NCBI RefSeq assembly: GCF_029227915.1
Contig: NC_079886.1
Coordinates: forward strand, 6,200,001-6,264,000
Source of the DNA: Hydractinia symbiolongicarpus
Lineage: Eukaryota; Cnidaria; Hydrozoa; Anthoathecata; Hydractiniidae
DNA: 64,000 nt
Reading direction: 5' to 3'
Positions within the stretch are counted from its first letter, which is position 1. Each line of letters begins with the position of its first letter. Positions 1,736-59,660 of this stretch are shown here, one piece after another. Position numbers and translations under genes: made by a program. The notes beneath the pieces are model-generated. The model made no database searches, was not told where the DNA came from, and was given only the letters and a program-made list of their open reading frames with translations.

Positions 1736-1978
1736 CTATATGTTGATTTATTTCGGATAAGATACTACCTGATTAATTTTTTTATTGGAGCATTATTTTT
1801 TTTTTTCTTCGGAAACAATATTGCAAACCAAACTCAGTATGTAGCAGCTGGGTGGAGTAAATCTTTGTAGGACCCATGCTCCTCTCCTATCTTATCTCTT
1901 TCTTATCCCAACCATCAATTGTGGCAGAAGGAGAGATCACGCTCATTCAACATAGCCCGCGGCAGCGAACTTCAGAAA

Positions 1979-2040
1979 CGCGCATGCGCGAAAATTGGAA
2001 AACATAAATCGTAAAAATCCTAGGCGGCGATGACGTCATC
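1979..2040 (+). promoter_or_regulatory. Promoter-like GC palindrome and CRE
   Basis: CGCGCATGCGCG at 1979-1990 is a 12-bp palindrome containing the NRF1-type core GCGCATGCGC. GATGACGTCATC at 2029-2040 is a palindrome containing the full CRE/ATF site TGACGTCA. Both stand out in AT-rich DNA and lie about 370-430 bp upstream of the first ATG of the RAG1-like gene. Promoter function is inferred. Confidence 0.45.
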
Positions 2041-2413
2041 ACATTCAAAGTAATGCACTAACAGCCCAAATAAAGTCTATCACCTACATATTAGACCCAA
2101 AATGTGTTTTATTATGGTATGTGAGGCCACCGTCTCGTAGAAACAACAAAAATTGCAGCCATAGCCATTGTTGTGGTTACGGAAATAACGAAACTATAAC
2201 CGACGAGAAATCAGTGAATTTCCCCATTTTCCACGTTAAAATTACAAAAAATAAAAGTTTTTCTAGCAACATGGTATATATTCCTATAAAGGCACATCAT
2301 TTAAGTTTTTAATTGTGAAAATTTCATTCTACTTACATATTTTTTCAGCTAAATATTAGGAGAAACGTAGAGCTCATATTTTGTCTAAACGCAGTTACAG
2401 CCGCTAGCCAAAC

Positions 2414-5400
2414 ATGGCTGCTAAACACAATGTTGAATTGGACAAACTATGTCGAATATGTGGATTTCTTCTCCCGAAAAATAAGAACAATACGTTCAAG
2501 GTTTCAAACCCTAAGGTCAGTAGAAGAATGCAGGAACATTTGTTCATAAACATTGAAAATGACACTGAAGTGCTACTCTAGACTTGGACAATTGGACCAT
2601 AGAAAAAGCACAAGTAACTTTGAGTTGTTTAAATGGACAGAGCATAGTGAGCAAAATTGCAATGTATGTGAAAACGAAATAAAACGAAAAAAAGGGGGAA
2701 GGCTTGGAAAAAGGATGTCCACAGGACGTTATAGTGTCTCAAATTCACACTGGACCAGAAATGAGACATCAAAAATTAATGAAAAGTTAGGTGAAACAGT
2801 CGTGTTGATGAAGCAAAATTTTAAAGAAAAATTCAATGATAACCTTTATTTATGCATATGCCAGTTATGTGAAAATTTAATGCAGAAGCCTGTGCTTTTG
2901 ACTAAATGTCAACACAGCTTTTGCTTCAAATGCTTCATACCAACAGTGGAGGGTCGCCCTCTCGAGAGTACCATATGTCCCGTTTGCTTCACTTTGGTGA
3001 CTCCAGAATTCGTTACACACTCTCAAACCATATCCTATTTATTAAGTAATTTGAAAATTGATTGCGAAAAATGTGGTGAAGTTTTCAAACATGGGGAATA
3101 TTGCAAAGAAAATCATCTCAGCATGTGTATCGGGCAAAAGTCGCCACTATTGAGTGATGTTTTTAAATTAAACAAGGAAAATGATATCCCGAGAGAATTT
3201 GAAAAAGCTGCTCTCCATGTGATCAAAACAAAAATGGCACAGTCAACATTACCAAATAATGGCATTGAGTTTATGACTGGTGGATCAAGAGTAAGAATAA
3301 CATTATTTCAATCCAACATCACATATTAGTTTGTCCCAAAAACGATTAAAATTATATGTACTTTTTTTTATAGCCCTTGGTCTTCACATCAACACCAAAA
3401 GCAAAAAAAACAACAGAATTAAGTAAAAGGACTGTTCAAAAACGCAACAAATTCATCTTAGGCCAACTTCAGCTTACTACAGGTTAACACAATTTTACTT
3501 AGTTAGTTAACATATATATATACCCATACACAAACATAGAGTTGATAAATTAAGGCTAAGACTAATTTTTGCAAATTTACGGTACTGTAAATAAGGTTAA
3601 CTTAAAACAAAACATAATTTCAAAAAATGAATTCATATAACATATATACAGCAAAAGTGTACTCATAAAAGTTTGAACTGGAAACTTTCAAGTCATACAA
3701 CCATAATACAATATAAGCACATAATTTTGCTATTGCTTGATAATTCAGGTGGTGGTGCTGAGACATTGGTAACACAAACCTCGAAGTTAGTAAAATCCTT
3801 CACTGAAGAAGATAAAGAGAAAATTTTGAGTCAGGCAGATGTTTTTCCTTCTGTTATAAGTGCAGAAACAATGATAGCAATGAAAGTTGATCTTGGAATT
3901 CCCTGGGAGAAACTGAAAAAGATGGGAAGGTGAGCAAATTAAAATTATCAAATTATGTCATGTGCTATAAACAGCCAAAAATGCATAATATTATATAAAT
4001 TTATCAATAAATTTCGTATTCCTTTTCTGTGTTAAATTACAGGTGGCTAAAATCATTGAAAATAAACGTTGACTCTCAATCAAAACAACGACAAATAGCT
4101 AAAAAATGGACTGGTGAAGATATAGCTGTTGAAATGATAAACTTCCAGTTCCCAAAGGACAAAAAGGGGAAATTCTTGTTTGAGGATGCACCATGGGGTT
4201 ATCTTATTGATGTTGTTACACATATTCTGTATTATCTTGATGCACTCACAGAGTAAGTTAAAACTTTCAATATGTAGGAAAATGGTAAACTTATCAAATT
4301 ATCAGACTGACATTCAATTCAAACTTACAACATTAAAAATTGTATTAATGTATCATTGCAAGTAACACACATGGACTGAATTTCATTTAGACATTCTCAG
4401 TTTGTTGAAAGAAGCACCTATCAAAATGAAATTCATGTGAAAATCGGAGGAGACCATGGAGGAAAATCATTTAAGATGTCCTACCAATGTTGTAACACAG
4501 TTCATCCAAATAGCAGAGGAAACACAGTTGTGTTTAGCTATTTTGAGGCAAAAGACTTTAGGATAAACTTGAAACTAGGTTTGTCGCGATTCAGTGATCA
4601 AATAGATTTACTACAAACATTAGACTGGAGGTGAGTTACAGAATTGACGTATCAATGAAAAAAATATTTTCATACAGTAATCAAAAATTGCAAAAACCAT
4701 AAAAACTATAAAAATACTAAAATATACTACAATATATATTTCCTAGAATGTTAAAAACAAATGCTAAAAAGGCAGCAAATTCATGAATTTGAAAAAGGGA
4801 ATTATGCATATACTAAATATTTTTTAGACAAAGAAATATCAGGGTATTCATGTTTGGTGACTATGAATTTTTGTGTGTGATATATGGAATAACCGGTGCA
4901 AGTGGTATGTAACTTTCAAAAAAAAGAAAAATTATTCTAAATGATGTTGCAATCACTCAATATTTCAATTAAATTTTCTACAGGTCGTCATTGCTGCCTT
5001 TTTTGTGAAATAACATCAAAAGAAATGAAAACACCTCCATTAAAAAGAGGAACAATAAAACAACGAACCTTGGAATCACTGAAAAGTGACCTAACAAGAT
5101 TTCGAAATGCTGGCGGCAACATAAGTAACGCAAAAAACTTCAATAATGTTATTGACGATGCTATGTTCAACATACCTCTTGATCAAGTTAGTAATTTCAA
5201 TTTGACTAAAGGAAGTTAAAATGCAAAAATAACTTTCACATATTATTTCTCTCCAGGTAGCACTACCATCACTACACATTTCTTTGGGAACATATTTGAA
5301 ATTTTTCAATATGCTAGAAGATCAATGTCATCTCTTGGAGGTAGGTAGCAGGTAGTGCCGCAATCAAAAACAAAACAATGACAGATGAAAGCTTTGAGTC

Positions 5401-6761
5401 ATATGTGGCGGCACAAATTAAAATACGCGACTTGGAATATCTTGTTCAAGATTACCACAACAAAATTAATCTTGTTCATGAAGCCATTACCACGAACATA
5501 TTAACAAGACCTGAAAAAGAAGAGGAGATACTGAGCATCTATCATCCAAGACTGAAACACTTGAATGATAAAATGAGAGAAAAGGTAATTCTCTCATATC
5601 ATAGGGCAGGGTTTTAATCTTACACTTGAATTATGTAACTATACAAATTTTTCCCACTATAAAACATGCATTATCATTAATTTTTAAAATATATTTGAAA
5701 CAAAATCGCACTGAGGAAAATTCAAACAAAGTATGATGATTATTTTTTCTTTATTTTTTAAGTTGGCACAAATTGATGAATTGGAGGAAAACAATATTTT
5801 GGAGAAAAACACAGGGCCTTGTGTGAAGTCATTAGACACAAAATTGAAGCAAATAGGCGTTGAACGTCAAGCATACCATGGAAAATCCTTTATTGGTAAT
5901 GACGTACATAAAATGTTAAAGGTAAATTGGTGTTTCGAGTGGTTATATATACAAATTTTTTACAAAAATCAATTTTCCAAAGTATTTTTATATGAATTTC
6001 AATCTCCTTGTTCATACATCATAAAATTTTTTTTAATAGGTGAAAAATATACTGGAATTATGCAACAGCATCTCTATCTTGGTAGTGAATTTGGGATTTT
6101 GTGATACTGATATACACCGAGAATCCATTCAGCTATGTACAAACTTCAAGCTCCTTTTTAATTACTATTCAAAGTGCCACAACTTGATGAATTCTGTAAA
6201 AAACTTTGAAAATGCAAAGATACAGGAATTGTAGCTATGCTTTACTTTTTTCTCACCACATAAGTCTTGGTACCTAATATCAGTCTTGTGACAATCAGGT
6301 GTGTGTTATGCTATCCAATTTGAAAAAGAAAATTTATCGCTATGAACAATTTTTGAACAGCGAACAATTTTTGTTAATGCTTTGGGATTTAAATCTTTTT
6401 TAAAATATTCGTGTCAGTTTTTCAAGATTTTGTTTCAGATACAGCTATCAAAACTTTGATGAGTTTCTTGAGGAAAACTTTCCCAGGTGAATCTGTTACA
6501 CCAAAACTACACATGCTGGAAAATCATGTTGTAGATTTCATTTCAAAATGGAAAATCGGTTTGGGATTGTATGGTGAACAAGGCGGGGAGAGCATTCACC
6601 CTGAGTTTAATATGTTAAGAAGCACATATAGTAGTGTGAGACCACCAACATCAAGAGTGCGTGTCATTATGGAACAACACCATTTAAAAGTAACACCAGT
6701 ATGCAAAAGCTATATTCCTAAGATTAAGAAACGGAAAACAGAACTTCAAATCGAAGAATGA
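2414..6761 (+). CDS. RAG1-like protein: N-terminal zinc/RING region plus DDE core (multi-exon, lesions)
   Basis: Exons read by eye: 2414-3290, 3374-3482, 3749-3929, 4043-4252, 4391-4630, 4828-4904, 4984-5186, 5257-5340, about 5342-5584, 5763-5921, 6040-about 6234, 6439-6761, giving roughly 960 residues (vertebrate RAG1 about 1040). The N-terminus has LCRICG and CNVC zinc pairs, then a RING (CQLCE, CQHSFCFKC, CPVC) and a trailing CEKCG...H...C finger, in RAG1 order. The core has candidate acids in GGDHGG (codon 4452), FGDYEF (4859) and GEQGGES (GAG at 6588), a CLFC pair (about 4996) and LHMLENH (6507-6527). These match the spacing logic of the RAG1 DDE triad and its CC/HH zinc site. Known family role: RNase H-fold DNA cleavage and transposition. 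Lesions: frame change near 2565-2580, a frame break at 5341-5360, and an unclear junction after 6234. It may be a decaying transposon or domesticated gene, or hold sequencing errors. No RAG2-like kelch gene is adjacent. Confidence 0.75.
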
Positions 6762-6765
6762 TTTA

Positions 6766-6850
6766 GACTATTAGCTGAGATAGCCAGTGGGGAAAGTATA
6801 TAATGTATAGTAATTTTAACATTCAGACCATTAGCTGAGATAGCCAGAGA
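6766..6850. repeat. Direct repeat, 60-bp period, after the RAG1-like gene
   Basis: The word ATTAGCTGAGATAGCCAG occurs twice exactly 60 bases apart, at about 6770 and 6830. The first copy starts within about 10 bases of the RAG1-like stop codon. It could be 3' UTR or a remnant of an element end. Confidence 0.6.
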
Positions 6851-6859
6851 GAATGTATA

Positions 6860-7731
6860 TATATATAGCTAGTACATTTTTTAGTACAATTTAACATGAG
6901 TATAATACTTTAAACTTAGCTTTAGTTGTTGCTAGAAAAATATCAGGTTATTAATCCATTGCCAATGACACCATGTTGATTTTTCGACTTTTCGATTGAC
7001 TTCAACGACCACGAAAATTCCCAAACTTTAGACTCACATATCTCGTAAAAAAAATATGTAAGTAAGATTCGGGTTTTTTTAGAAGGTTAACCAAGTATTC
7101 CTCCATACGAGTATGCAATTAGTTTGTTCAGAAAAACTTCTGAACGCGATTATTTGAGCATTATCCTGGGATGAGCAAAACGAAACTTTTAAAATGATTC
7201 CATATTTCCCTGAAGAGCCACCGACATACTTGCGAAGTTCCTTCTTCCTTGTTTCTGCTTGATTGAAATTCCCAAGCACGTGGTCAAACTTTCCGAAGCC
7301 AAAAATAATACCTTAATCACAATTCAATAGATCTTTTATTTAAAATCAATCAAGCATACAAATCAAAAACAAACAATTCTTTGATGCCGCAGCCGCGACT
7401 ACCATCTTGAAATTTCGCTGACGTAATCACAAATTTCTTGCGCGAGCAAAATCTCTGAAGTTCACGGCTTAAATGAGCGTGAGATATGGGAGCGTTCTCT
7501 CGTAGTGTTACCTACTCGAGTTTACAATCACGGTGAGTATGAATTTCCTAGCAAATTTGCTATTCTCATAGCCTTCCTTCCCCAAAAACAATTAATTATG
7601 TACCTTGTACTCTAGGAAAAAAGAAAGTAATTCAAGTAGACATATTGTAAAAAGTATATTTAAATATGTATACATAGTATTTTTAACACAGATGTACAAA
7701 GCTTGTTGTATAGGAGAAATATAACACTTGC
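6860..7731. other. Non-coding spacer
   Basis: No supported gene. The DNA between the RAG1-like gene and the Harbinger transposon is AT-rich, and its open frames are short and lack family features. Confidence 0.4.
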
Positions 7732-8060
7732 TTAAGGCCGTTTCACATTACAGAAATATATTGAATCCAATATATTGGAAATTATTGATAACTATTGAAA
7801 AATATTGCCTCAATTAATTGAAATAATGTGAAACCAACTTTTGAGACACGTTCGAAAAAACATTACGCAATCGCTTTCAATACTTGTCAAGACTTTTTAA
7901 TTCAAACACGGTTTGAATTAAAAAATATTGCAAGGGAAATTCTTTTGTTGTGAGAAGACTCAATTGTTCTCCGAACAATAGAAAAATCGAATCAGCAAAG
8001 TATTCGAAATTTGTCTGTCTGAAATAAACAGTAAATGAAATATACGATCGAAGATAAAAG

Positions 8061-9017
8061 ATGGAGCAAAATAACATTTATTATTTTGAAAGTCAGCCAC
8101 ACGATTTTGCTACGAATGATCAAATACTATTTCCTCAAGCTACGACGCAACAGCAACATGCCGCACATGTCTTCACTCAGAGCTCACCAAAACCAACCTC
8201 GTCAATCTTGAGCCAAAACACACAAATATTCGGTCAGAGCGTGCCACAGCAACTTCAACCTTCACTCAGCCCCGTATTACAAAATGCAGAAGATGAAACT
8301 TCTGCGAAACCTCAGAAGCGAGGAAGAAAAGGCTTGAAACATGAGAAAGTTTGGAGTAGTGGTGAAACTGAACATTTGATAAATTTGTGGTCACAACACG
8401 AAGTTCTATACAAAGTTAGTTGCCCAGGATATATGGACAAAAACAAAAAACAACTGGCACTTGTAGCGATTGCAGCCGAGCTAAATTGTAGCGAGAGTGA
8501 AGTACAAAAGAAGATGCACAGCATGAAGACTTATTATGGGACATTACGTCAGAATTATGAGGAATCGAAGAGGAAAAGTGGAAGCGGGAGAGCTGATTTG
8601 AAGAAGCCTAATTGGCCTTGGTATGCATTTATGGAATTTTTGAACGATAACTTGACTTCCAAGCGCACATATTCCAACATGAGACAAAACGAGGCTTCAT
8701 CGGAGATTGACGATTTAGAGTCTCACGAATCTTTCTATGTGACCCCAAAATCGAAAAACAACCGGAGTAAGGGGCAAAGTTCGTGTCAACAAGATCTGCT
8801 GTACGTCAAACAATCTGCGCTTATGGACAAAGCTTTGAATGTTTTGTCTACTCCTAAGCCGAACGCACAGCCTTCTGAAAAGTCAGCTGACGATCTGTTT
8901 GGAATGATGGTGTCAAAGTCTATGTCTTCCATTCCCGAGAGCGAAGATAAGGAGGAATTGAAGATAGAAATCCAATCACTTATTTTACAAACAAAACGAA
9001 GAATACAGCTTTTCTAG
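8061..9017 (+). CDS. Harbinger accessory MADF/Myb-like DNA-binding protein
   Basis: Single exon of 318 residues starting at the first ATG inside the transposon. The first 75 residues are Q/S/P-rich and low complexity. From about residue 93 comes a trihelix/MADF-like block with a tryptophan at the start (KVWSSGETEHLINLW), a central SESEVQKKMHSM helix and a PWYAFMEFL end near residue 187. The rest is polar and ends in a charged, possibly coiled segment. In PIF/Harbinger elements the second protein binds the transposon ends and brings the transposase to the nucleus; that role is inferred here. It converges on the transposase gene with 50 bp between the stop codons. Confidence 0.85.
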   Translation: MEQNNIYYFESQPHDFATNDQILFPQATTQQQHAAHVFTQSSPKPTSSILSQNTQIFGQSVPQQLQPSLSPVLQNAEDETSAKPQKRGRKGLKHEKVWSSGETEHLINLWSQHEVLYKVSCPGYMDKNKKQLALVAIAAELNCSESEVQKKMHSMKTYYGTLRQNYEESKRKSGSGRADLKKPNWPWYAFMEFLNDNLTSKRTYSNMRQNEASSEIDDLESHESFYVTPKSKNNRSKGQSSCQQDLLYVKQSALMDKALNVLSTPKPNAQPSEKSADDLFGMMVSKSMSSIPESEDKEELKIEIQSLILQTKRRIQLF

Positions 9018-9067
9018 AACCCTTAGATTCGTCATTGTTTGTATTTGTTGTTTTGGTGAATAAAGTT

Positions 9068-10418
9068 CTATTGTCCGTATACTTGATTCCATTGCCAATG
9101 CACCTGGCCTATACCTTGAAAATAATCACTGAAAGAATTTCGAATATTTTCTGCGCGTGTGCTAAAGTTTCTTGATTTTGTTCCTTCCATCGGGGACAGA
9201 CTTGATAGGTTGTTAAAAATATTATCTTTGATTTCCGGTCCCTCCGCGTTTGTATACGTTTGCATAGACATAGTACACAGCATATTATGTAACGCACAAG
9301 TAGCTAACGTTACTTTTACAGCAGATTCGGGAAAAACATTTAATTTTGCAGTGAGGCAGCGAAACCGATTTACAAGTATTCCAAAAGCGTTTTCACTTGT
9401 TCTTCTTGCACGTGATAAACGATAGTTGAATATGCGCTTTGACTCAGTAAGTCCTTTCTGTGCGTAAGGTTTCATGCAATACTCAGTTAAGGGAAAAGCA
9501 TCATCAGCAACTAGAACGTATGGCAAGAGTGGCTGGTCACACTCAGGGTTAAGGAAGGAATCATCAATTCCAGATTTGTTTGGCAGTTTTCTCCTTTCTG
9601 GTAAATCTATGCTGTTTGTAGATAATCCTCTAAAAAATTCACACCGCCTGAAAACTCCACCATCGCTCAGACGTCCCTGGCAGCCGATATCGACAAAAAT
9701 AAATCGATAACGCGCATCAATGATACCTAGTAAAACTAAACTGAAAAAACCTTTGTAGTTGTAGTATGTTGAACCGCGAAGCTTAGGATGGTACAGAGCA
9801 ATATGTTTTCCATCCATTGCCCCAATGCAATTTGGAAATTGCCACATCGTTTCGAATTCAGATGCAATTTCAAGCCAGTCGTCTTTGTTTTCGGGGAACT
9901 TGAGGAAATCATCTTTTAGTGTATCATATAATGCTTGACAAACCTGAGGAATAAATGTGGCAATGGTTGAAATACCAACAGAATAGTGATGATGTAAGCT
10001 AGTAAAATTCTCCCCAGTAGCGAGAAAGCGCAAAGTTATTGTCAGCTTCAACTCCGGCTCCAAAGGTTTCCGTAAATGCGTTGTCTTCTTCGTTAATTTA
10101 CTTCTGACTTTCTCAAGTAAAAGCTAAACAAAAGGATTGTTTTAGATCAAACTCAGAATTATTTCACATGAATATCAAGTTAAAAATTATATTCACCTCA
10201 TATATGTCTGGGCTCATTCGCAGGTATTTGCGGAAACTCTCTTCGTCATACAAACGTAGTTCTTGCACTAAGTTATCGTAAACACCGATCGATTTTCGTT
10301 TTTTCATCCACTCCTTTACCCAAATTCTACGCGTAACCTTAGGTTTGGAAAAGTTTGTCGGAAGTAAAGTTGTAGCAATAATAATCGCAGCAACCGCTTT
10401 TCTCTGTTCCTCAGACAT
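9068..10418 (-). CDS. PIF/Harbinger DDE transposase (HARBI1-like), two exons
   Basis: Minus strand. Exon 1 is 10418-10197 and exon 2 is 10123-9068, with a 73-bp GT-AG intron in phase 0; together 425 residues. The N-terminus (MSEEQRKAV, then NLVQELRLYDEESFRKYLRM) is the usual Harbinger helical region. The DDE_4 core keeps all three acids: IGAMDGKH (about residue 178), FVDIGCQG (about 219) and RTSENAFG (about 318). LSDGGVF and ALHNML motifs are also typical. Length matches the family (about 350-450). It cuts and pastes the element at its TIRs. No stop or frameshift is present, so the enzyme may be active. Confidence 0.93.
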
Positions 10419-15526: not shown

Positions 15527-18500
15527 ATGATAATGAAATCAAGTCAGCCAAATTCTTATACATTTCAAGTGCGTACTACGAAAAGGGAAGGGTCATTTCA
15601 GCTAAAGAAGTTGCCGCTTATTCATAAAGAAGTTAAACTCACCCATCAAAGAATTCATTGGATACAATATTTACATGAAAAAGAAAATGACTTTTTTCTA
15701 ACTTTTGAAAGTAGCAATTCTGGAATTTATGATGTTTTAGTAACCTGCAAAGACCAAGTTGAAGGGAAAGAAAACTGTTTTCCAAATGGGAACATTCTAA
15801 CTGCACAACTAGATACATATAGTTATTTCTTAAGATCACTGGACAAAAATTATCGAAACGGAAAGATATCTTTAATTTTGAAATTTGATGCAAGCCAGGT
15901 TTTGTGTATTCACATTGTACTTGAAGATTTAGCCTTTCAAAATGCAGACGAGTTTGATTCTGTAACAAAATTATCAAGTAATATATTTGCAGGTACTGAC
16001 AGTACTGTGAAACCAATACTGCAGTACCTTTACTCTCTAAAAGATGACTGTGTGCAATATGAAGAATCTACACCAGTTATCAAAAAGGATGTTCATGATC
16101 TATACCAATACATCAAAAATCATCACACATCACAATTTCGTTGTTATTTTAATAACAAATGCAAGCAGGACATAAATAAAGCTTCTAATATTCCCAATCA
16201 AATTTACCCAATCACTGATGACAATAAAGTTGGTAACGAATTACAATCAACCGATTTGCGCTTTATATATCAACATGAACTACTGATTCCATCTCTGAGA
16301 ACATATCAGGCAAAAGCTATCCATTGGATGATATTCAAAGAGAGATACAATTGTTATGAATCAGGTAAACATAGTGAATGTGAAAATATGTTTTAGAAAA
16401 CTATACTGGATAATTACATATTATTTAGATATAGTACGAGTTAATTTTTAAAATGCTGTTGTTAGAAACAATTTCTGGCATACAAGCCTAAATGTGCAAG
16501 GCAATGCAAAACTCTCAGCCTTTTCTCCAAGTAGAAAATAGATTGGGACTTCAGCACCAACACCAACACAGGAGCAATAACATGTAATTGACACTTTTTT
16601 TCATTTAGCCACTCTACCTGTGGCAGAAATAAAAATAAAAATATTTTTTACAATGTAAAAATTTAAAAATTCTGCAGGGATAAAGATAGGAAAATATTTT
16701 ACTAGATGTGTATTTTATGTTTTGTGGTAGTTCAAAAGATATTTTTTATACATTACAGAGAATCATACAGACCTTCATTCATTGTGGCAAGAAATTATCT
16801 GCGAAGATGGAAATAAGATCTACTTTAACCCTTATAACACGGCGTATGGTTCATGATTTTATTTTTATATCTACAGTCATACCTGTCTTTCTGGTCAACA
16901 CTACAAGCAGGCCCCTCAATGAGGAAAAAACTACCCACAGGATAAAACGCTTACATTATACAACGTGTATTCGATCACGTACATACCTAAGTTTACTTCA
17001 CGTATGCGATTTAATTTCTTTAATATTTTATAAAAACAATGTAAAACTGCTGCCTTGTTTCCCATTCACATATCAGTTTTTATTTCAAGGTACCAAAATT
17101 GAAATTTGTTAAAATAGACGAACTTCATTAGTCTTTTTCCAGGATGTGAAACAAAAAAAATTTCCAAATCCAAAATTGCCTGTTTCCAACCTGTAAGCTA
17201 TTTCTTTAGATGTGCATATTTTGCATTTTTCTTGTTAGGCTACCAGAGCATCAAGTCAAGCTATCTAAAATAGACAGTATAATATAGCTAAAATAAAGGC
17301 CTTGTTGAGGCACAACTTTTAGTAAAGAAAATAAGCCGAATTTCACAAAAAAAATACAAAGATACAAAGTCACCAGCAATGTTTTATGCAAAGGCAAAAT
17401 TGGGGCAGAATTTTGTAAACCATTTTAAGTATGTCTGATTAGTAGGTAATTGATTTTATTTGAGATGCTTTCGTTTAGTTTTGATATATTCATGTTAAAA
17501 ACGTTTGTTGCAACAACCATTAAATCACCAAAATAGTTGACTTGAGCGGTCCTTTTAATTCCTGGCGGTAGCTATGTAGCTAGCAATAAAATGTTAATCT
17601 TAAGTACTAAAAGCTGGTCTAGACTTTGAGTTTTTTTTCTCTGGGTGCCACCATTTTTATGTTGTCTTAGAAGACCATTTATGAAATGCTCAATTGAGCC
17701 TAATGTTACAATCTGATATTAACTATATCTATTTTCCATCAATCTATTAGGATTCTAAAGTTTGAAAATATTTTTGACTTTCAACATTTTATAAATAAAA
17801 ATGCCTTTGTGTACTGTATACTGCGATTTAATTGGTGTAATTTAAAATATATAATATATATATATAGTCTTTTATAATGTTTAGTTTATCGAAAAGGAAA
17901 CCAACGTCCCAAGTGTTACCAAAAGGAGGTATTCTTGCAGATGAAATGGGATTAGGTAAAGTTTGTATTATTCGTTTACATAACAACTGGTATAAAAGAA
18001 CTTGTAGCAAGAATACAAGCACTAAATTCACCCATCTAATAAACATAAGTTTGTCTAATTTAAATCATATTCTGATTTTATTGGTACTGAATATTTTGTT
18101 TCTCACATATAAAAGTTGTATCATGACATCACACCTTCTTTTTTTTACTTTTTGGAGTGTCTACTTATTTAGGAGATCTAGAAAGAATTGCAAAATTTCC
18201 TTAAAATTTAGGGAAGATAATAAAGGTTTAATCTAGTGTAGGAATATAGAAAATAAGAAGGAGAATAAACTAAAATTTAAAAGCACCACTTGCCCTATAT
18301 CTATTGTTCTTAAATTTAATGCTTGTGCTCCTCGATTAAGTTCCCCCCCGTAAAATCTGATGTAATGTAACTTTCTCCAAAGCAAGAATAATTTACAGCG
18401 TGGCAAAATATCCAAATTACAACTTTATTCCACTAACTTTATACATTTTTTGATTGCAAAGATTTTATTAGAACAAGCATATGATATGTTGGGCAGTGAA

Positions 18501-21500
18501 GGGGGTGTTGGAATAAGTGTTACTTGCAGGATAGGTTCTGCTTAGAAAAAGTTCAGAGAGTTACTTCCTTTGTTGACTAACAGGGTCTTGTCAATTGAGT
18601 TAAAAGGTAGGTTGTATGAGGCCTGTGTAAGAAGTGTTATGTTGTACGGTAGTGAGACATGGGCAGTGAAGCAGGAAGGTCTTGACTGTTTAGAAAGGAA
18701 TTATATAAGAATGGTTAGGTGGATGTGTAATGCCAGTCTGAGAAACAGAAAGAGTTCAGATGAGCTAAGAAGCAGGCTAAGTATCCGTAGAATTAAAGAT
18801 GTTATCCAGATAAGAAGATTGAATTGGCTGGGGCACTTGGAAAGAATGGAGGGGGATAATTGGGTAAGAAAGTGTAGAGACTTAATAGTTCCTGGGGCAA
18901 AGTCCAGAGGCAGACCAAGAAAGACTTGGCAGGGGGTTATAAGGACAGACTTGATACAGAGGAAGTTGAGTTTACATTTAACACAGTCTAGATCAGATTG
19001 GAAGAGGGTCATTAATATGCCCTGTCCAACCCATGCTAGCATGGAAAACGGACATTAAGCCGAGAAAGATGATGATGAAGCATGTTTTGTGTATAGTAGT
19101 ATAACTTTTGTTCATACAAATTTAAGACATCTTCATATATTTTTATTAGGGTAGATTTATGCATAGAAACTAGCTGTTTTTTAAGTTCGCATAAATTATC
19201 ATAATCAATTTGAATCAAACAACATAGCTAGAGAGTATTTTGGGTGTTTTCAGTGTTGTTAATCCATTTTTTATTCCTATAAATTTTTTCTTACACAAAT
19301 AATATCTAAGGCTACAGAATATAACAGCATTTAAATTTCTATTCCCAAATTGTGTGTACTACCTGTAGCTAAAGCTATGTTTCTTAATTTTATTTTGTTG
19401 AAAATTTAAAGTGCTAGATTTCAAATTATAAGCTGAGTAAAGCATAGGCTGTGTCTCAAGAATAATACGATAGAAAAAATAGAGTTTGTTCTCCTATCTT
19501 TTAAAGATATCACGAAGGCATATTTTATGTTTAGCTTTGGAGTTAACTAACTAGAATAAATCCTTATGTTGATTTAGCAAAATGGTGTTACTGCAGTCTT
19601 TTTTTAGTTTTCTATGGACTTCTATGGACTAAATTTTTTATGTAAAATGCAATGCATTTCTCTATTTAAGATATTAAAATCACAGACATCAGTTATATTG
19701 TCGAAATTTACTCTTTTGCTCTTTGGTTTAAGAATTTTTCACGTTTGTAAGACCAAGTGACCGTTGAATTTATTTAAGAATACTGTATTTCATCGATTAT
19801 TGTTGCTTTGTTAATGGTTAATATTTCAGTTACCCTGCTTTTTTGTTAGGTAAAACTGTGGAAGTACTTGCATGCATACTAAACAATCAAGCTAAAGAAA
19901 AGTTCAAACTTGTACTCACTGATCCAAAAGAAGAGAAAAGAAATGTTGATAACGCTATTGGTTATTTGAAGTATCCACAAAACATTATCCAAGGTGAAAA
20001 TGTAAGCAGTGAAGGTAAAAAAGAGGATATTTCAAGCAATGAAGTTGTGACTGGTATTCAAAATGCTCCTAATTGTTTCCGTGCTGAAAAACGTAAATCA
20101 GTTACAAATAACGATGAGATATTGGTTAAAAAATGTAAGACACTAGATGTAATCAATCTTGACAAGGAAAGTACTGACTTTGATATCATTAAAGATGTCC
20201 TTTCTAATTTGGTGGATAAATGCTGTGAGAAAAGTAAGAGATACATAGAGGACATTGAAAAAGGGAGCATTCAATCATCAGATAGTGGATTAGATAACGG
20301 TGGACTTAAAAGTTGTAATCAGCAATCCCAAAAATGTAGAGAAAACATTTTAGGTGAAGAAAACACTCATAAGGATTCCTTTGATGATTTATATTTCTGC
20401 AAATGTTTTGTTTGCGGTGATTTACCCAAAGGTATTAACAATCACAACAAAGTTAAATGCACTGAATGCACAAATGTCATGCATCAACAATGTACTGGAT
20501 ACATGAATTTAAATGTCAGCAGTTACCAATGCCCAACTTGTGCCATGAAAGAGGTAGAAATGTTTCCCTATGTTAACAAATATTTAAGCCTCTTCAATAT
20601 ATTGTTGTTTATACGTTTCAATAAACATTTTTTTTAGGCGAGACACAATAAACATTTAGCATAATAATGGTGCAAGTGTAACATTTTGCAATTTAGGATA
20701 CTGTTTTTGCATTTACGTTCAATTAGATAAGAGAAATAAAAAAATGTTATAATTGATAGTAAAAAGTTCAATTTGTTGATGCCATGATACCCAAGGCAAC
20801 TTTTTCTGGTGATAGTGACAAATTTACATTGATTACGCTGTCAGTAACAAAATACAAATCAAATCGATGTGATTTTGCATCTTCTTATTGGTAAAACAAA
20901 AATACGTTGGTATTTAATAGAATTGTGCATTTGGTGTTTAAAGACTATAGAAAAACAAAGAACGCTATATTACAGCAAATTGAAAATCAGGTGTAATTCG
21001 GATTACACCTGATTTTCAATTTTTCATTTTTCAATAATGTGAACAATGTCACATTATTTTCCCATATGTAAAATAATACAGGACATCTCTTTATATGAAT
21101 TATTTCTTAAGTTGAACACCTTATTTTAGAAACATTAAAATAAGCAAGACTTGGGAAATAAATTATAGACTTGTTTTTGTACAACATCTAATTTTGAAGT
21201 GCATTGTGCGTTTACCTTTAAGTAGAAAAGGAAAGCAGGCAAGTTGATTATTATTGATGAATATATATCAAGTATGCAATAAAAAGTTTCTGATACATAT
21301 GAGTTGGGACTAGAATAGGCATGGAAGTTTACAAAATATGTGTGGAGTGTAGCAAAAGTTTATCTGCATAGTAGGTGTTTTTCATCAACTCAAAAGATGT
21401 TTAGATGAAATTTTATTCTAGATGATAGACACTCATTGCACTCTCATTGTGTGCCCTGACACGCTACTTTCTCAATGGGTGGATGAAGTCCAAAAGCATG

Positions 21501-24500
21501 TTAAAATAGAGAAATTTAAATTTATGGTAAGTTTCAGTTCCCCGTGCTATTCAGTATGTACAGTTCAATTTTCAGCTCTAGATATACATGGTTTTGAATG
21601 ATTTATTCAAGATCTAACTAAATGCACTGATATATTTTGCAGCTTTATCATACAGTGTATGCTAGTAACGCATTGTTTCTTTTGATTATTTTTTTACATT
21701 GCCTTTGTTAACATTTTTAGGTTTACAGAGGCATAAAAAATCATCAGTTTTTGCAGCCGAAGATGTTGGCAGAATACGATTTAATTATTACATCTTTTGG
21801 TACATTACGGCTGGATTTTTATTACTTTATGGCAGATCAGGGTAAGGAAAAGCATCTAAAAGACATGTTGTAAATCATATGTAATTTTCTTTCTATTTTT
21901 AGTGGTCATTGTATATGCAAAGTTCATGTTTTTTAAATGTGCCTTTGTTTCAGTATGAAACTTTCCACTTTATCAAAACAAATGCTTTTTAAAAATGTAA
22001 AAAAGCATGTATAATTGTATATTTTTTTGTGTTTATTGTTTTAATATCTCTTCATCCAATTCACAGCTCTTAGGCTTTCTGTGAAATGTTTAAACATTTA
22101 TACCTTCTGATTGACCATCAATGTTGTTTGAGCCCCTGTTAAGCCTTCTAAACTGGCTAAAAGGAAAGGAAAAGACTTGTGTGTGATATTTAAAGTTACT
22201 GCAACAAATACATTTTTTATTTCTTTAAATGATGAATTGAATAATGGTTAAATAATGAAGATTGTGTAAGCAGATTTGTTATGACTTTCCTCTTATGCTG
22301 AAAATGCTTTTTGATTTAAAAAATAAGCTTATACCTTAAATAAAGGTATGGGTTTTGTTGCTGCTGTATTTACTGACAAATCTAGGTTGAGGTTAGATTT
22401 GACATTAAGATGATCTTTCTGGCATTGGGTATCTGACTGTCGTTGCATTGCATTTAGCCTCAAGAAAATTACGGTATCAAAAGAAATATGCTGCATTGCC
22501 ATGCCCGTTACTAGCACTTAGATTTTGGCGTATGTGTATTGATGAGGCACAAATGGTTGAATCAGATAGCACAAAGGTGGCAGAAATGGCTTTAAGGATA
22601 ACTGCTGTTCATCGTTGGTGTGTAACTGGAACACCCGTGCAGAAAACAGTAGAAGGTGAGTTGTTCATATTTTGTTGCACTTGAAAAAAAGAATGTTTAA
22701 CCTTTTTTTACATGTATATAAAGCTAAAGTAGTATATTTCTTTAATGCATCCAGAATAAAAGTTCTGTGGCCAGGTATTTAGTTTAGTAGCAGTAAAGCT
22801 TTTAATATGCTACAAGATGTTGCTGCAAGGTTTGATTGAATCTGCACTGTAATCTAAAATATAAGTTGAAACATGTTAAATCACATGTTTTTCTATAATT
22901 CTTAACTAAAACGCAATTACAATTTACTGTGAACAAAATAAAAAACAAACAAATTAAATCATAAGAAAGGTTGCTTAGCCATTTTCATTAGAGAAAATGT
23001 AATATGAGGTGTGTTTGTAGTGTTTATTTGTGATCAAGTTTCGTGAATCGAAATGTGCAATATTAAGTTTACATTATTTTACCTTGTCTTACTTTAAACC
23101 CATATAATACATAAGAATAACTCACTGCTTAAATAATTATTACGTTTAGTGGGTCTGTTGATCTTTTTTCTTATTGGTTAACAATTTGTTTTTATTTATT
23201 TTCAGATGTTTACGGATTGTTGCTATTTCTCTGTGTGAGACCCTACTCTTGTAAAGTTTGGTGGAAAAGAGCTTTGCTTGATCATTTTCATGCTGGTGAC
23301 CATGAACCCTTTTTTAAACTAATGTCAAAAGTAATGTGGAGGACTTGCAAGGTTGACGTGGAGGAACAAATTTGCCTACCAAAGCAGACAGAATATCTGA
23401 CGTGGTTACAATTCACTGCAGTGGAGCATCATTTCTACGCAAAACAGGCTGCAAAGTGTGCAGAAAGCACGAAATATCATCTTAACAAAGATTTCTCCTA
23501 TTTAAGTGATTCGTTACAATTGAAGGATCTTAGTAAACAAACACTTAGTAAATTGCTCTCTCCTTTACTTCAACTTCGACAAGCTTGTTGTCATCCAGCT
23601 GTAGTAAGAAATAGTCATTTGAGTTCAGAGAAAAAGTGTGTTACCATGGAACAACTGTTGGGGAAACTAACCTCCAATGCTAAAGTTGAAGCTGCAGAAG
23701 CTCACCGAAAGTTACTATGTTCTTTAAATGCATTAGCTGGCATTGAGATTTTGCAGGAGAATTATGTAAAGGCTGTCGAAATTTACAATAGTGTTATTGC
23801 TTCGTGGGAAGAGCACAATGATTTGACTACAGACTCTTTACAGGTAACTCAGAAGTGTTTCTTTTACCAGACAAATGTTGTTCAAGAATTCCTTTAGGTC
23901 GAATTTAGGAGGGTAAGTGAAATATCATTCAAAGGAAGACATTAGCAGTCGAAGAAAAACCATATTGGATTACTTGTTTTTATGGTCAGTAAATGAAGTA
24001 AAAAAATTACTCCCATCTGGACATACATCCAAACATGGGTGCTGTAATACCAGACAGTACAAAATAATTTTAAGCATACGACAAAGCTTATTATTAGTGA
24101 TTGGTTTAGGCAGCAAAATTCATTGAAATTCTCCAATCATAATATAAACTTCTCACAAAAGTTTATTCCATTAAGGTAATTTGGATTCATTGGCGCACCG
24201 TGAAGTTTTTTTTAGTAGGCTCTTTTTTACTTTTTCTCTAAGTATGCCTAAATATTTGGATAAACTTGAAAATTTTTATTTTTATTTAGAAACTGCATAC
24301 CCTCCACAATTTACACGATATCTTGTATGAATATATCGATAGCCATAACAGTGATCACACTAATAAAATAAAGAATGATGCAGAAAGTTTTCGGTCGAAG
24401 TATCTGGCTGATATTAACGGTGCAGTGCACAACAACAAGATTTCGTTAGAACAGCTGAATGATGATGTTACAAAATGCAAAGATCAGGTCTGTGGTAAAA

Positions 24501-27500: not shown

Positions 27501-30500
27501 AATAGCTAGAAAAACAGTTGTATTACTTTTTGTTGTCGATGCTTATAAAAGAATTATTATTTCTTGACGTGTTTGCTTGCAAGATGAATCTGGCATGTGC
27601 AATTCACACGAATGTGCATATCATCATTGCGCTGTATGACATTCCTTTATTTTGTGAAAAAGTCACTTAGAGTGTGTTTAGTAGCGAGATCGAGAAAATG
27701 ATGGCAACAGAGGACACACAAAAAAATATCCGTAAAACATGGAAGAAATTGCTAAAAACATCTCCCATGGATAATAAGTCATAACGCTATAAATATTATC
27801 ACCTTCAAGTCTTTTTAATTCAATTTATTTTATGCCGGCAAAAAATAACCCCGAGGTGACATGTCATTCAATTCAACAAGTTATATTTTGCTTTGCGATC
27901 GCACGTTCCCATACACGAACAAGTTTAAACAAGTTTAAATTAAAGAGAGAAAATAAGAACAAAACTTTCGTAAGTTCAAGTTACATCCAATTTAGAGAAT
28001 AACCACGCTGGCAAAATTTTCCGACGGGAATCAAGAATTTTGTTAACACGTTGGCAATTGGCGACGTACTGACGTGAATTAAAAAGGCATTCTTTTTATT
28101 TATTTCTCTGTACGAGCATCGCAAAAACACAAGAATAGTAGTGTATGCATTCCTATGCTTTCTTGTTGCGGAAATTTTCAGTAATTCATCTGTAGGCCTT
28201 ATGTGTTAGTAATATTTGTATTTGTAACCTTGTCCCGTTGTTGAGTTTATGTATTTGTAAAATACTTCTGAGATGTTCCTTTTGTATTATAGGTGCTGCT
28301 ACTGCAGTGCAGAAGATGTGATAAATAATTATGAGAAAGTTTTATTTTCACAGCAAGGATACAACACTTTCGAAAGGTTAGTGTATACGGTGGTACTCGA
28401 GTAAATTGCACTTTCATAATTTAAAAACTATATCAAATTAAATGGTAGGTCCCTTCAGAATATACCTATAGCTAAAAAACTCATGCAATATTCACTTTCC
28501 TGGGCATTCGAATTATACTGTATATCGTTTTCAATATTCACTGTACATAATTAGTTTTCGGCAAAATATTTATTAAACAATGCAGCTGCCAGGTAAAAGA
28601 CGAAGAATAGACATTCCACAACTGTCAAAACAGAGAAACCTGACCACAAGCCCAGCTGGCCACCGATGTCACCAAGCAAATTTGCGATCTGATAGAATTC
28701 TTCTTCCTCAATTATTTGAGATTCGAACGTTTGAAAGAATATTCGAATGTTTACTTTGTCATCCATAGATATCTGCGTAACTGAGGATTTAAACTTCTGT
28801 TCGCTTAGTTGTACGTCGTAGTTCGTTTCTTGGCAAGGAAGGTTGCATTTTTTCAGACATTTCAGCGATTTTTGTCTGACCAACTGAGCGACGCTGTTGG
28901 TACAATTGCTATCGTTCAAATTACAGGTTCTGTTACTGTCCAATGATGGACTAGTATAGCTTGTACAGTTACAAAGCCGTATGGTTGTTCGAGCAATGCA
29001 GGTTTCACGACATAGACTTGATGTGTACTTTTCCAGATATCGCTCGCCATTCGATCGAATTCCCAAGTCCGTGTATTCATCTTGGATACAGCTGTTATTT
29101 TTAAACGGATCGGCACGTCGTACAATTTTCTTTCGAAGTGATACGTAATGTGTGTATCCGGGTCCAAGATGGTAACTGTTTGAATATAAGTCAGCGTGTT
29201 GTCCTTGATCACCAATGTTCATGATAACAGCTGCAGTTGGAGTCATTTCGTGGTATTGACTTTGCTGGATATTAAGTGTCAAAAGTAAACCATTATCCAT
29301 ACCAGTGGACGAAACATGGAAGATTTTCTGTTTTTTTCCCTTGTTATTATATCGTGAATTGAAGGTGAAGCAGTTACCGTATTTCCAATGCCACGTCTGT
29401 TTCCATTTAGTCTTGTTTTTGCAGTCGTAAATCCCCTTCCAGCGGCATTTTTCAAACATTTCATTAAAACTATGTCCGAATCTATGGACGTCGTCCTCGT
29501 TAGACAAGGCCATATCTGCCATTCTTCTGTATATCTCGAAGTTTTTTTTTTGCAAGTTCATTTCTTCTTTGTCCTCTTGGAATTCAGTATTATCTTCTTC
29601 AAAGTCGTACCATGTTCCAAACCCTGTTGTTTCGTTGGTCATCTCAGTGTAGTTGGTCAAGTAGTTGTTGCCTGTGAAGCTGACTTGAGAGTCGAGTTCG
29701 TAAATCATAAAATTATTTATCATATTCGTATTGCAAATAGTGACTTGTGGAAATGCTAACACACTTTCTTGTTGCAGTCTTATTTTCGATTGTGTTGGTC
29801 GTTTGGCATATTGATCAAGCAGAGGTTTTATCTGGAACCATAAGCCAATTTGACATCCTATAATCGCTAATACCCAGAAGACGCGGATTGTCAGACGGCC
29901 ATGCGAAATAATATGCATAAACCCATGGGCTGTTGTTGTTTCAGCAAATTTTTTAAAAACTGCGCTGAGAGTTTTCGGTTTCTTCTTTGAAGTATAGCTA
30001 GCTGGCGTTTTTGTCTTTGTGTCGTAATTACCATCAGAAGTCGACTTAACGTTGATTTTTGGCATTTTTTCTTTCGATCACGTCAAGCGTTTCTATTCAC
30101 TAACGCATTCACACAAACTGATTTTCTTGTAACAGGCGTTCGTGTATTTTTTAGTTTGTGCTGCTATATGATGTTTGTATGTGACATCTTCCTTTTTCTC
30201 ACAGAGGAATATTGTAATTATAAAAAGCATACTAAATATGGCTATTAAAAAGTAATTTTAAAATATATTGTAGCTATTCCCTTTGAGGTGGATTGATAAT
30301 ATGTACATAATATCAAAAAGTGGAGGTTATTTTTTAATTTTGTTTTATAGCTGTATGTGTTGATGTATAAAGCAACCATTCTGTTATCGATACTCTTTTA
30401 TGTATGACCTTGTCAACACATTATTTCGCTGAATGTGTTACCGACCACACAACTCGCATATTTCTCCCATAAATTTTATTACATAACCGTAGGCAAAGCT

Positions 30501-33500
30501 GCCTTTTGAATAAGTTTTATTTATCGCTCGGTACAGATTATAATACGGCATACATTTTTTAAGTTCGGATATTTTTAGCTTGTTTTTTTTTACAGTCTAA
30601 ATGCGTGAAAAATAAAAATATCAGAACGAAAAAATATATGTCATATTGTACGATGCTTCAGTGCGATAATAGTTTACATTAGTGAAAAATTTCAAACCAT
30701 GCTACAAAAAGAAAATAAAATACAAAAAAAAATCTCAGATTAATTAGACAACAATTAAATTGTTTTTGGTATAAAACCCGTGACAAAAATTCAAGAGTTA
30801 CTGATGCATGACCCACAAATAAACAAAAAGACAAAGGACACAAAGAATAGTTAATTTATCGTGAATATTAAGTATTTAATTTAGTTTGCGTGTGTTTATT
30901 TTTTTTATAAATTTAGTTTTATAAAATACGAAACATTTTTATAGATTTGTTTAATAGCCGTCATCGTAGAAAGTTGTGGACAATGAAATTTCATTCATAT
31001 GTCACAGACGAAATTACCAAAAAAAATCTTGGTTTGCGTAGCTTTGTTTTCAAAATTTTTTGATTTTTGAGGTAAACATTTGTTGTTGTTTTCTCTCAGT
31101 ACCCAGACTCCAAAAAGTTCGCGCCGTTATTACATGTACAATATGAGATATTGTATTTTCAATATAAATAATGTAGAAATGCTAGTTGCGTTTTATGTTA
31201 GGAATTTTGAGATTCGTCAAGCCTTGGTAACAAAACTCGGGTTTCGTGTAACAACCATTAACATTTAGCATTACTGACCTTATTTTTACAAAGCCAGCTA
31301 AAAGCAACTATAAAGCCTGGAAGAAAATATATAATTTCTATGCACGTCAAAGCTGAGAAGCCTGACCACAAGCCAATCTGTCCTCCAATGTCGCTGATTA
31401 AGTTTTCGAGCTCATAGTACGTTTTGTCTTCAATCACTACGGATTCGAAACTTTTAAAGTAAAGAGTCACTTTTAATAAGCTGTCTTCATCTTCAATACC
31501 GAAATCATCATTTATCGTCCTTCGTACAACTTCTTGCGATATTGGAAACTTGCTGCTTGATATCCCTATATCATATTTGACTTCATGGCATGCATTCGTA
31601 CACGCGCATGGTAAACTACCATTCCTGTAGTACAGGTAAATATTACCGGTGCACTCAAAATGTTCGTGCTTGCATGTGAGGTTGCTATCCAAAGAAGGTA
31701 ACCAATAACCAGAACAACCGCACTCTTTAATCAGTACTCTAGCAAAACATACAGTTTTACATAACTCTTTTGAATATTTTGATAAGACTCTCTGTCCATG
31801 AGATCTGACGCCAACGTCGATTTGAGAGTGTTTGTTGCAGCTGTTGTTCTGGAATGGGTCAGCGCGCTCGTAGCGTTTTTTCTCTATGGTGACTTCGTGC
31901 GCGAAGCCTGGTGCAAGACTGTAGGCGTGGTTTTGTAAGTCTATTTTTTTATCTTGCTCGTCCACGTGCAGCATGATGCCAGCCGTCCGAGTTAAGTTGG
32001 GATAAAATTCAGACTGGTTGACGTACATTGTCACAGATAGTCCGTTTTCATTTCCAGTTTCGGTAACGCTAAGAAGTTCGATTTTATGATTGGTGCTGTT
32101 GTATCCGCTGTTAAAAGTGTAGCAGTTTCCATATTGGTAATGCCAGAACTGCCTCCAAGCTTGTTTGTTTTTGCAATCATATATATGCTTCCATTGACAA
32201 GATTTTATCACTTCATCGAAGCCATGTCCGTATTGATACATGTAGTCGGCGTTTTCGATGAGCACGTCGCCAATTTTGTCGTAAAGTTCAACGTGCTCTA
32301 AATATTCGGTAAAATGGTTGAAATCAATCGATAAATAAGCGTCCTTTCCAACAGTTGTTTCGATATCATCGTATGTGTTTGTGCCAAGTGTTATGTTCAA
32401 AACCTCAAATAATTTTGTCAGTTTGGTCTTTTTGATCATGTTTGACGAACAGATGGTCACTGCTGGAAATGTAGGCGCGACCTCTTCTTGAAGCCATATC
32501 TTTGACGTGGTTGGCTTGGATGAATACTTGTTTAGGAGGGAAGTTATTTGAATCCATAAACCGATTTGACATCCTAAGATAGCAAGTATCCATAAGAATC
32601 TGCATATGTTAGTTCTTGAACTTACAAGATACGATATACCATGGGCTGTTGTGGTGCTAGCAAAAGAGCTGAAATGATAATATAAGTCGTTTGATTTGCA
32701 GTCAGATGTTTCAAAACCGCTTTGGACCTTGTTTTCTTCAGTCATGGTGATTTATTTTGCTTCCTATTTTCTCATGTGTTGATGGAAACTAGCGAACTTC
32801 TGTTTTTTACAAACATCAATTTTTATGGTGGGAATATTACGATCTGTTCATATTTGTTCATAATTGAGACGTTGTAACGCAAAAAAACAATTATTTTTTC
32901 ATTTATTTTTTTATGTGCTTCCAAATTTATTTTGCTTATCTTTCTTTTTTTTCCCTATATTTTTTGTTTATTTTCCTACTTTTCTTCGAGTTACATGTTT
33001 TCACGTTGTCGAAAATCAAACATGTTGCGTAAAAGTATTTCCGAATGTTGTGGACAATTATAGCATACTGTCCAGTACTTAAGGTGAAGTAGAAGATAAC
33101 GTGTAGCATATGATAATTACTTTCAAATATTCTCTTTAAAACTTTAAATACAGTAATTAAACGGAATCCACTGAACTCATTGGGTGAAGTAGTATCAATT
33201 CTTTTCTCAAGAGATATCGGTTTGCTATCTATATTATAATGCCCGTATACGTCTGTCCGTCCGTCCATCCGTCCGTCCGCCCGTCTGTCTGTCACGCAAA
33301 ATGGTAGCTTGGCTGCGCAATAGCGAGAAGCACGCAATGCGGTATAAAAGGACGGGCGAACCCGTGGATTTTCCACGGGCTAACGACTATTCTATAAATT
33401 AAAACTGATTTTGTCTTATATCGACTTTCACAAGGTTATATCGGCTTTCCTATTTTAACAATTTTCTTTTTTCAAATTATGGGATCTGTCGATATTTATA

Positions 33501-58439: not shown

Positions 58440-59660
58440 ACGATTTCAAAGCTTCTGATGGCTAGATCGCTGAAAATCCACCTTCTCAATCAAAGAACGT
58501 CGCATTGTCGGCGAGGCTGGAGATGTATCTACAGAAACCGTTTCTTCTTGGATAGAGAGGGTAAACGAATTGATTGAAGGCTACTCTTTGGATAACATTT
58601 AAAACATGGACGAATCTGGCTGTTTTTTAAAGCCTCACCAGATAAAGGATTAGTCTCAAAAGGAAAACAAGCAAAGGGTGGCAAAAAATCGAAACAAAGA
58701 TTAACTGTCGCTTTTTTGTCAATGCAGCTGGCGAAAGAGTTGACGAACCCTTTATCCCTTTATTATCTGGAAAAGTAAATCACCACGCTGTTTCCTTCAT
58801 GCCCTGCTGATGTTCATTACTTTTCTAATCCTAAGTCTTGGATGACATCGGATGTCATGGAAACCGTATTGACACGTTTTAACAGAAAGCTGGTACTCGA
58901 AGATAGAAAAGTGATCCTTTTTCTCGACAATGCTCGACAATTCTCGCAGATCAAGATCGTCTTTTTACCGAAAAATACAACTTCGAGGTTGCAACCACTA
59001 GATGCAGGCATCATTCAAAATTTCAAGGTTAAATATAGAAAAAGACTTGTTAAATACGTATTGGCAAGAATCCAGGAGAACACATCAGCAACTGAAATTG
59101 TCAAGGCTATCAACGTGCTTGTTGCTATTCGCTGGATACAAGATGCGTGGAAGGAAGTATCCAGCTCGACAATCAAAAATTGTTTTCAGAAATGTGGCAT
59201 CAAAAGAGATAGCGAGGAGATAGAAGAAAAAGACGGAGATGATGATTTGGAGTTTGAGGCACTTGTAAAGGAATTTACTACAGACTTATCCGCAGCAGAA
59301 TATGTCAACTTCGACGCAAACGATCCAGCATCAGAACCCATGATTAACGAATTAGAAATCGATTGGCGACAGAAGGTCAGAGATGATAGTATCGATGCAA
59401 TCTGCAATCGAGAAAAGCCAGATGATCAGATTCAGGAAATTTCTGACGACGACCAAGATGACGAGGATAATGACGACTATGGGCCAAAACAAGAAGAGCA
59501 GATGAGCTGCAAAGAAATCATCACAACGTTGGACAAAATGCGCCGTTGCACCGTCTTCGATGAAGAAAGTCAAAAAATGCTGACGGCAGTTACAAAAAAG
59601 ATTGAGGATCTACAAATTAAATTCAAGGAGCAACCCTCTATCAAAGACTTTTTCTTGTAA
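58440..59660 (+). pseudogene. Broken Tigger/pogo (DDE_1) transposase
   Basis: Pieces in several frames: DDFKASDG followed by a stop where tryptophan is expected (about 58474), ERRIVGEAGDVSTETVSSW, NMDESGCF (first catalytic Asp region, just after a stop at 58598), and then a 272-codon open part 58842-59660. The last holds VILFLDNA (second Asp), FLPKNTTSRLQPLDAGII and a C-terminal acidic tail. In-frame stops and frameshifts separate these pieces. The CENP-B-type DNA-binding N-terminus is largely missing. Confidence 0.85.

Follow-up and report, generated by a model that had tools for sequence, protein, structure and literature searches.

The stretch of DNA described here, called the window below, comprises 64,000 nucleotides of Hydractinia symbiolongicarpus (contig NC_079886.1, positions 6,200,001 to 6,264,000); all positions are given in its coordinates. 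It contains what is very probably a DNA transposon of the Chapaev superfamily, 5.5 kb long and of the cut-and-paste type (1938-7481), now probably inactive. The mobile unit of 5,544 bp is larger than the gene inside it, which spans 2414-6761. A preliminary description of the window had proposed that this one gene combines a RAG1-like N-terminus, a RING and a core of the RAG1/Transib fold, and profile comparisons and the structure model of a relative, P0001, bear this out.

Gene and family membership

The gene lies on the forward strand and consists of 11 exons separated by 10 introns with GT...AG ends, nine of which preserve the reading phase while the last does not. Its start and stop were placed correctly in the preliminary description, and the motifs GGDHGG, FGDYEF, CxxC, HMLENH and GEQGGES are found where that description put them. 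The division into many exons also holds, with 11 in place of the approximately 12 proposed. Searching with P0001 by tblastn matches the region in order over residues 8-961, in eleven stretches with gaps (E 7e-156). With eight relatives as tblastn queries, the rest of the 64-kb window gave no match at E 1e-3.

The family is indicated by Pfam, which gave nine matches to E 10 for the read-through protein of 962 amino acids. These include DUF1280 (PF06918; 6.2e-12, 46 bits against a cut-off of 25) and the RING family zf-C3HC4 (4.1e-6, 27 bits against a cut-off of 21). A study of 2014 recognised DUF1280 as the transposase of Chapaev and grouped it in one clade with RAG1 (PMC3985635).

Relatives can be found in Hydra, echinoderms, molluscs and a lancelet. 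A homologue search returned 30 proteins, among them 15 from Hydra vulgaris (some being isoforms of one locus), 10 from echinoderms and one from a snail. Among the 27 that were aligned, which exclude P0012, P0015 and P0028, DUF1280 is found in 24 and RAG1_imp_bd in five (E up to 10). For RAG1_imp_bd, a RING family and DUF1280 alike, P0001 scores above the cut-off, and in the precomputed domain list it alone among the 30 has all three. A second search, started from the sea urchin protein P0020 and scoring only the 7988 candidates with the most words in common, gave 24 proteins. Thirteen of these were new, including echinoderms (two starfish among them), a periwinkle, a lancelet and the EukProt protein Em0001g2046a, which we take to be a sponge protein. 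Domain scans of P0020 and nine of these new relatives found DUF1280 in nine of the ten. The crinoid protein P0153 passes RAG1_imp_bd with its RING below the cut-off, P0154 and P0162 pass the cut-off of a RING family, and matches below the cut-off are seen for a RING in P0157 and for RAG1_imp_bd in P0158.

A separate observation concerns the N-terminal zinc regions of P0158 and P0162, which are weakly matched by zf-AD (ZAD; 7.4e-5 and 4.4e-4, both below the cut-off). This hints at a possible relationship between the ZAD domain and the N-terminus of RAG1.

In a tree built from the window protein and 30 of its 43 relatives, the window protein falls into a ten-row group (100/99) together with P0001, P0004 and seven proteins of Hydra, and its nearest rows are from Hydra. 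It is at most 50% identical to each of the 30 homologues in the tree, and 41% identical to P0001. DUF1280 is reported to be enriched in Hydra, where 13 and 31 genes were counted, while five further cnidarians have between 0 and 4 (PMC7642931).

Ends of the element

The gene is enclosed by inverted ends that match exactly over 10 bp, and the same four bases, AGAT, stand directly outside both of them as a target-site duplication (Table 1). Inward of the 5' repeat, a weaker, gapped inverted similarity continues to about 1980 and was matched by one of 300 shuffles. The target duplication of Chapaev elements is 4 bp. For transposons of this clade more generally, the ends are described as mostly 5'-CA..TG-3' and the duplications as 2-5 bp long (PMC12730594); the repeats found here start with CA and are accompanied by a short, 4-bp duplication. 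The preliminary description had considered so many exons unusual for a mobile element, but as the gene stands between inverted ends with a target duplication, its introns do not argue against mobility. Outside the gene, the element contains 476 and 720 bp of non-coding sequence, so there is no space in it for a RAG2-like gene.

Likeness to RAG1

The order of parts is that of RAG1, the protein that cuts antibody genes in vertebrates. Comparison with a vertebrate RAG1 set (22 aligned sequences, from 120 listed of 233 found) gives 98.6% and E 1.2e-15 for the whole family profile, a score to which the RING and the N-terminus contribute much. When the profiles are split by domain, the N-terminus of the relatives matches that of vertebrate RAG1 (99.3%, E 7.6e-21) and the RING matches the RAG1 RING (98.1%, E 1.1e-13), while non-corresponding domain pairs reach E 0.024 or worse.

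For the core, the sequence profiles are weak and the claim rests on the fold. The P0001 model has an RNase H core with D, D, E and a CC/HH zinc site in the order seen in RAG1, as the preliminary description had proposed, and the same residues are located in the window. In the model, a long-helix insert lies between CC and HH. The best 46 Foldseek matches to the model are RAG1, RAG1L or Transib; identity to vertebrate RAG1 over the aligned fold is about 14%. A chance likeness to RAG1 in an otherwise unrelated DDE enzyme, for instance one of the KDZ family, is therefore rejected as extremely improbable: nothing was found in its favour, neither an unrelated fold nor a best match to KDZ turned up, and no KDZ family is among the nine Pfam matches to E 10.

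The exon 1/2 junction encodes TGGSRP, a GGxRP motif that by eye resembles GGRPR of RAG1, making this segment a possible candidate for a nonamer-binding-like region. The model range from residue 313 is aligned to RAG1 from residue 391 in some structures, with modest model confidence there. The profile comparison lends this reading no support (five columns, 0.8%).

Because domain order and core fold are the same as in RAG1, the element might instead be a RAG-type (RAG1L-RAG2L) transposon, in the direct lineage of vertebrate RAG. Such pairs are reported from cnidarians (PMC7204232). This explanation is nevertheless highly improbable and is rejected. Pfam gives DUF1280, not RAG1, and the core sequence is remote from RAG1: no RAG1 chain is among the 60 listed of 73 Protein Data Bank matches to E 10 in a single-sequence search, nor among the five matches of the family profile, where prefoldin is at the top. 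The duplication is 4 bp and not 5 bp, the ends read CACGCTC and not a heptamer like that of a recombination signal sequence (RSS), and the flanks are too small for a RAG2-like gene.

Weighing the evidence

Several findings weigh against the reading as a Chapaev transposon with a RAG1-like transposase. The first group concerns the ends, which were spotted by eye and only afterwards tested with a scan for a duplication plus a repeat, so that their statistics are after the fact. When both flanks are shuffled by dinucleotides, an exact 10-bp end next to a 4-bp duplication is reached in 27 of 300 cases if CA is not required. Shorter ends turn up often by chance: 208 of the 300 shuffles have one of 8 bp and 79 have one of 9 bp. 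With CA required at the start of the end, as is mostly the case in this clade, the combination falls to 2 of 500 shuffles, and with CAC to 0 of 500. A plain inverted-repeat search did not pick out the ends at 1938 and 7481, nor did a local alignment of the flanks, whose best score of 40 was equalled by 20 of 200 shuffles.

The second group concerns the core. Compared with RAG1 as a whole it gives 6.0% and E 0.0062, with only 67 C-terminal columns aligned; its RNase H part gives 15.8% (E 0.0016) and its C-terminal part 36.7% (E 3.6e-4). A broader family alignment brings no gain, with corresponding core parts at E 0.0007-0.016 and 26.9% at best; in its controls, forward non-corresponding pairs stay at E of at least 0.027 and reversed RAG1 profiles at E of at least 0.15. 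The single sequence of mouse RAG1 matches the family profile at 8.6% (E 0.0039). Judged by sequence, the kinship of the core to RAG1 is suggestive, not decisive. In addition, the profile alignment puts the first D two columns off the first D of RAG1, its exact place being taken from residue order and model strands. The structure model is that of P0001 (predicted template modelling score 0.58), not of the window protein.

Finally, the window N-terminus, which is damaged, stays below the RAG1_imp_bd cut-off (12.5 bits against 23.3, E 0.11), and the assignment to Chapaev was reached through the DUF1280 profile, the ends and published descriptions of the family.

A damaged copy

The preliminary description had not noticed that the gene is broken in several places. 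In exon 1, a deletion with a frameshift occurs near 2570. By tblastn, P0001 residues 8-46 and 56-308 match in different frames on either side of it, which leaves residues 47-55, nine residues including one cysteine of a zinc pair, without a counterpart. A second frameshift lies in exon 8 near 5343, where residues 480-509 and 511-593 of another relative, P0002, match in different frames. Residues 645-707 of P0002 match before the last intron and residues 708-806 after it, and splicing at its GT and AG leaves the two out of phase. Two frame breaks, an out-of-phase intron and a partly deleted zinc pair together mark a damaged copy, and given the frame breaks it is probably inactive as an autonomous element.

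If this were instead a host gene, domesticated from a Chapaev transposase and still making protein, it would also have a mostly intact coding sequence, retained catalytic and CC/HH residues and ten recognisable GT...AG introns, all of which are seen here; the frame breaks would then perhaps be sequencing errors. The loss of about nine residues with a zinc cysteine, the second frame break and the faulty last junction speak against domestication, as do the transposon ends and target duplication that still flank the gene and the abundance of relatives in Hydra (15 of 30 homologues). Domestication is thus very improbable, and a probably inactive transposon remains the preferred reading.

Table 1. 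Features of the probable transposon and its gene
Feature	Position	Strand	Basis or remark
Target-site duplication AGAT, 5' side	1934..1937	.	identical 4 bp beyond both inverted ends
5' terminal inverted repeat CACGCTCATT	1938..1947	+	identical, when inverted, to 7472-7481
Exon 1: damaged RAG1-type N-terminal zinc region (CRIC 2450, CY 2571, CNVC 2658), then RING and trailing finger (2859-~3130)	2414..3290	+	splicing, Pfam, tblastn
Exon 2; exon 1/2 junction reads TGGSRP	3374..3482	+	splicing; motif by eye
Exon 3, core begins	3749..3929	+	splicing, tblastn, model range
Exon 4, DUF1280	4043..4252	+	splicing, Pfam, tblastn
Exon 5, RNase H strands; first catalytic D 4452-4454 (KIGGDHGG)	4391..4630	+	splicing, Pfam, model of relative
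Exon 6, second catalytic D 4859-4861 (FGDYEF)	4828..4904	+	splicing, profile alignment, model of relative
Exon 7, zinc CxxC at 4995-4997 and 5004-5006	4984..5186	+	splicing, profile alignment, model of relative
Exon 8: LHISLG motif, then long-helix insert starts; frame break near 5343	5257..5584	+	splicing, tblastn
Exon 9, VERQAYHGKSF motif	5763..5921	+	splicing, tblastn
Exon 10; end out of phase with exon 11	6040..6230	+	splicing, tblastn
Exon 11: zinc histidines of HMLENH 6510-6512 and 6525-6527; third catalytic E, the second E of GEQGGES, 6588-6590; stop 6759-6761	6439..6761	+	splicing, profile comparison, model of relative
3' terminal inverted repeat, AATGAGCGTG on + strand	7472..7481	-	mirrors 1938-1947
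Target-site duplication AGAT, 3' side	7482..7485	.	same 4 bp as 1934..1937

Proposed mechanism

An intact element would encode a single transposase. Its core, with the RNase H fold, the D-D-E residues and the CC/HH zinc site, would pair both CAC...GTG ends and cut them, and the cut ends would be joined to target DNA with a 4-bp stagger. By analogy with RAG and Transib, the chemistry would be DDE cut-and-paste, possibly via hairpin intermediates. The RAG1-type zinc N-terminus and the RING may have accessory roles as they do in RAG1, such as DNA or partner binding and ubiquitin transfer; the RAG1 RING is reported to be a ubiquitin ligase (PMC4411706). The ends of the window copy might still be mobilised by an intact relative.

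Other features of the window

Directly downstream, at 8058-10123, lies a second DNA transposon-like pair of genes, one encoding a MADF/Myb-like protein (+, 8058-9014) and the other a DDE_Tnp_4 transposase (-, 9071-10123), arranged as in PIF/Harbinger elements. A fragment of a DDE_1 transposase, of pogo/Tigger type, is present at 58779-59657 (+; 2e-28).

Exons resembling an SHPRH-type SNF2 gene extend over about 17868-23894 (+), with the SHPRH helical domain and SNF2 at 23133-23894. In this candidate gene, 'GGILADEMGLGKV' was seen by eye near 17925 within a listed open reading frame. Two neighbouring genes for DEG/ENaC-type sodium channels, each a single open frame, are found on the reverse strand at 28554-30077 and 31261-32751 (ASC, 2.4e-81 and 5e-81, whole profile).

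Comparison with known systems

With vertebrate RAG1, the element shares the N-terminal zinc region, the RING, the DDE RNase H core with its CC/HH zinc site, and the order of these domains. It differs in the low identity over the fold, the long-helix insert, the absence of RAG2 and the location of the gene in a transposon. RAG1L, ProtoRAG and TransibSU elements also differ from it: RAG-type elements are described as having 5-bp duplications, RSS-like ends and a RAG2L partner (PMC7204232), whereas this one has a 4-bp duplication and no RAG2-like gene. Canonical Transib is described as having no identifiable domain beyond the core (PMC4411706), to which the window element adds a zinc N-terminus and a RING.

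A RAG1-type N-terminus carried by a transposon is also known from N-RAG-TP of Aplysia, which is reported to be made up solely of RAG1 N-terminal-like sequence and has led to a fusion hypothesis (PMC8355894); the window element has the core as well. The whole RAG1 frame, with zinc N-terminus, RING, GGxRP nonamer-binding-like segment and core, may alternatively descend undivided from an ancestor that RAG1 had in common with Chapaev. The N-terminus would then never have been joined by a late fusion with an N-RAG-TP-like element, and DUF1280 elements would be a living outgroup with all the parts, including the module that binds DNA ends. We put this forward tentatively, judging it somewhat more likely to be wrong than right.

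The closest likeness is to Chapaev itself. The Chapa domain is named after Chapaev, which was identified in lancelet and starlet sea anemone; two Chapaev subgroups are reported to carry it at the N-terminus together with a RING, and Chapa, RING and core are inferred to have been fused already in the common ancestor of the Chapaev, Transib and RAG lineages (PMC4411706). The preliminary description had held the N-terminus and the core to be known only separately, but their combination was already published for Chapaev (PMC4411706, PMC3985635). The window element shares with Chapaev the DUF1280 core, the RING of the two subgroups, the CA...TG ends and the 4-bp duplication; its damaged N-terminus is probably of the Chapa type, to judge by its relatives. 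It differs in being broken and in its distance from the homologues in the tree. Given this published architecture and the identity of DUF1280, the element is a new and probably inactive member of a family already described. It reveals no new link between Chapaev and RAG1 and instead illustrates the published one.
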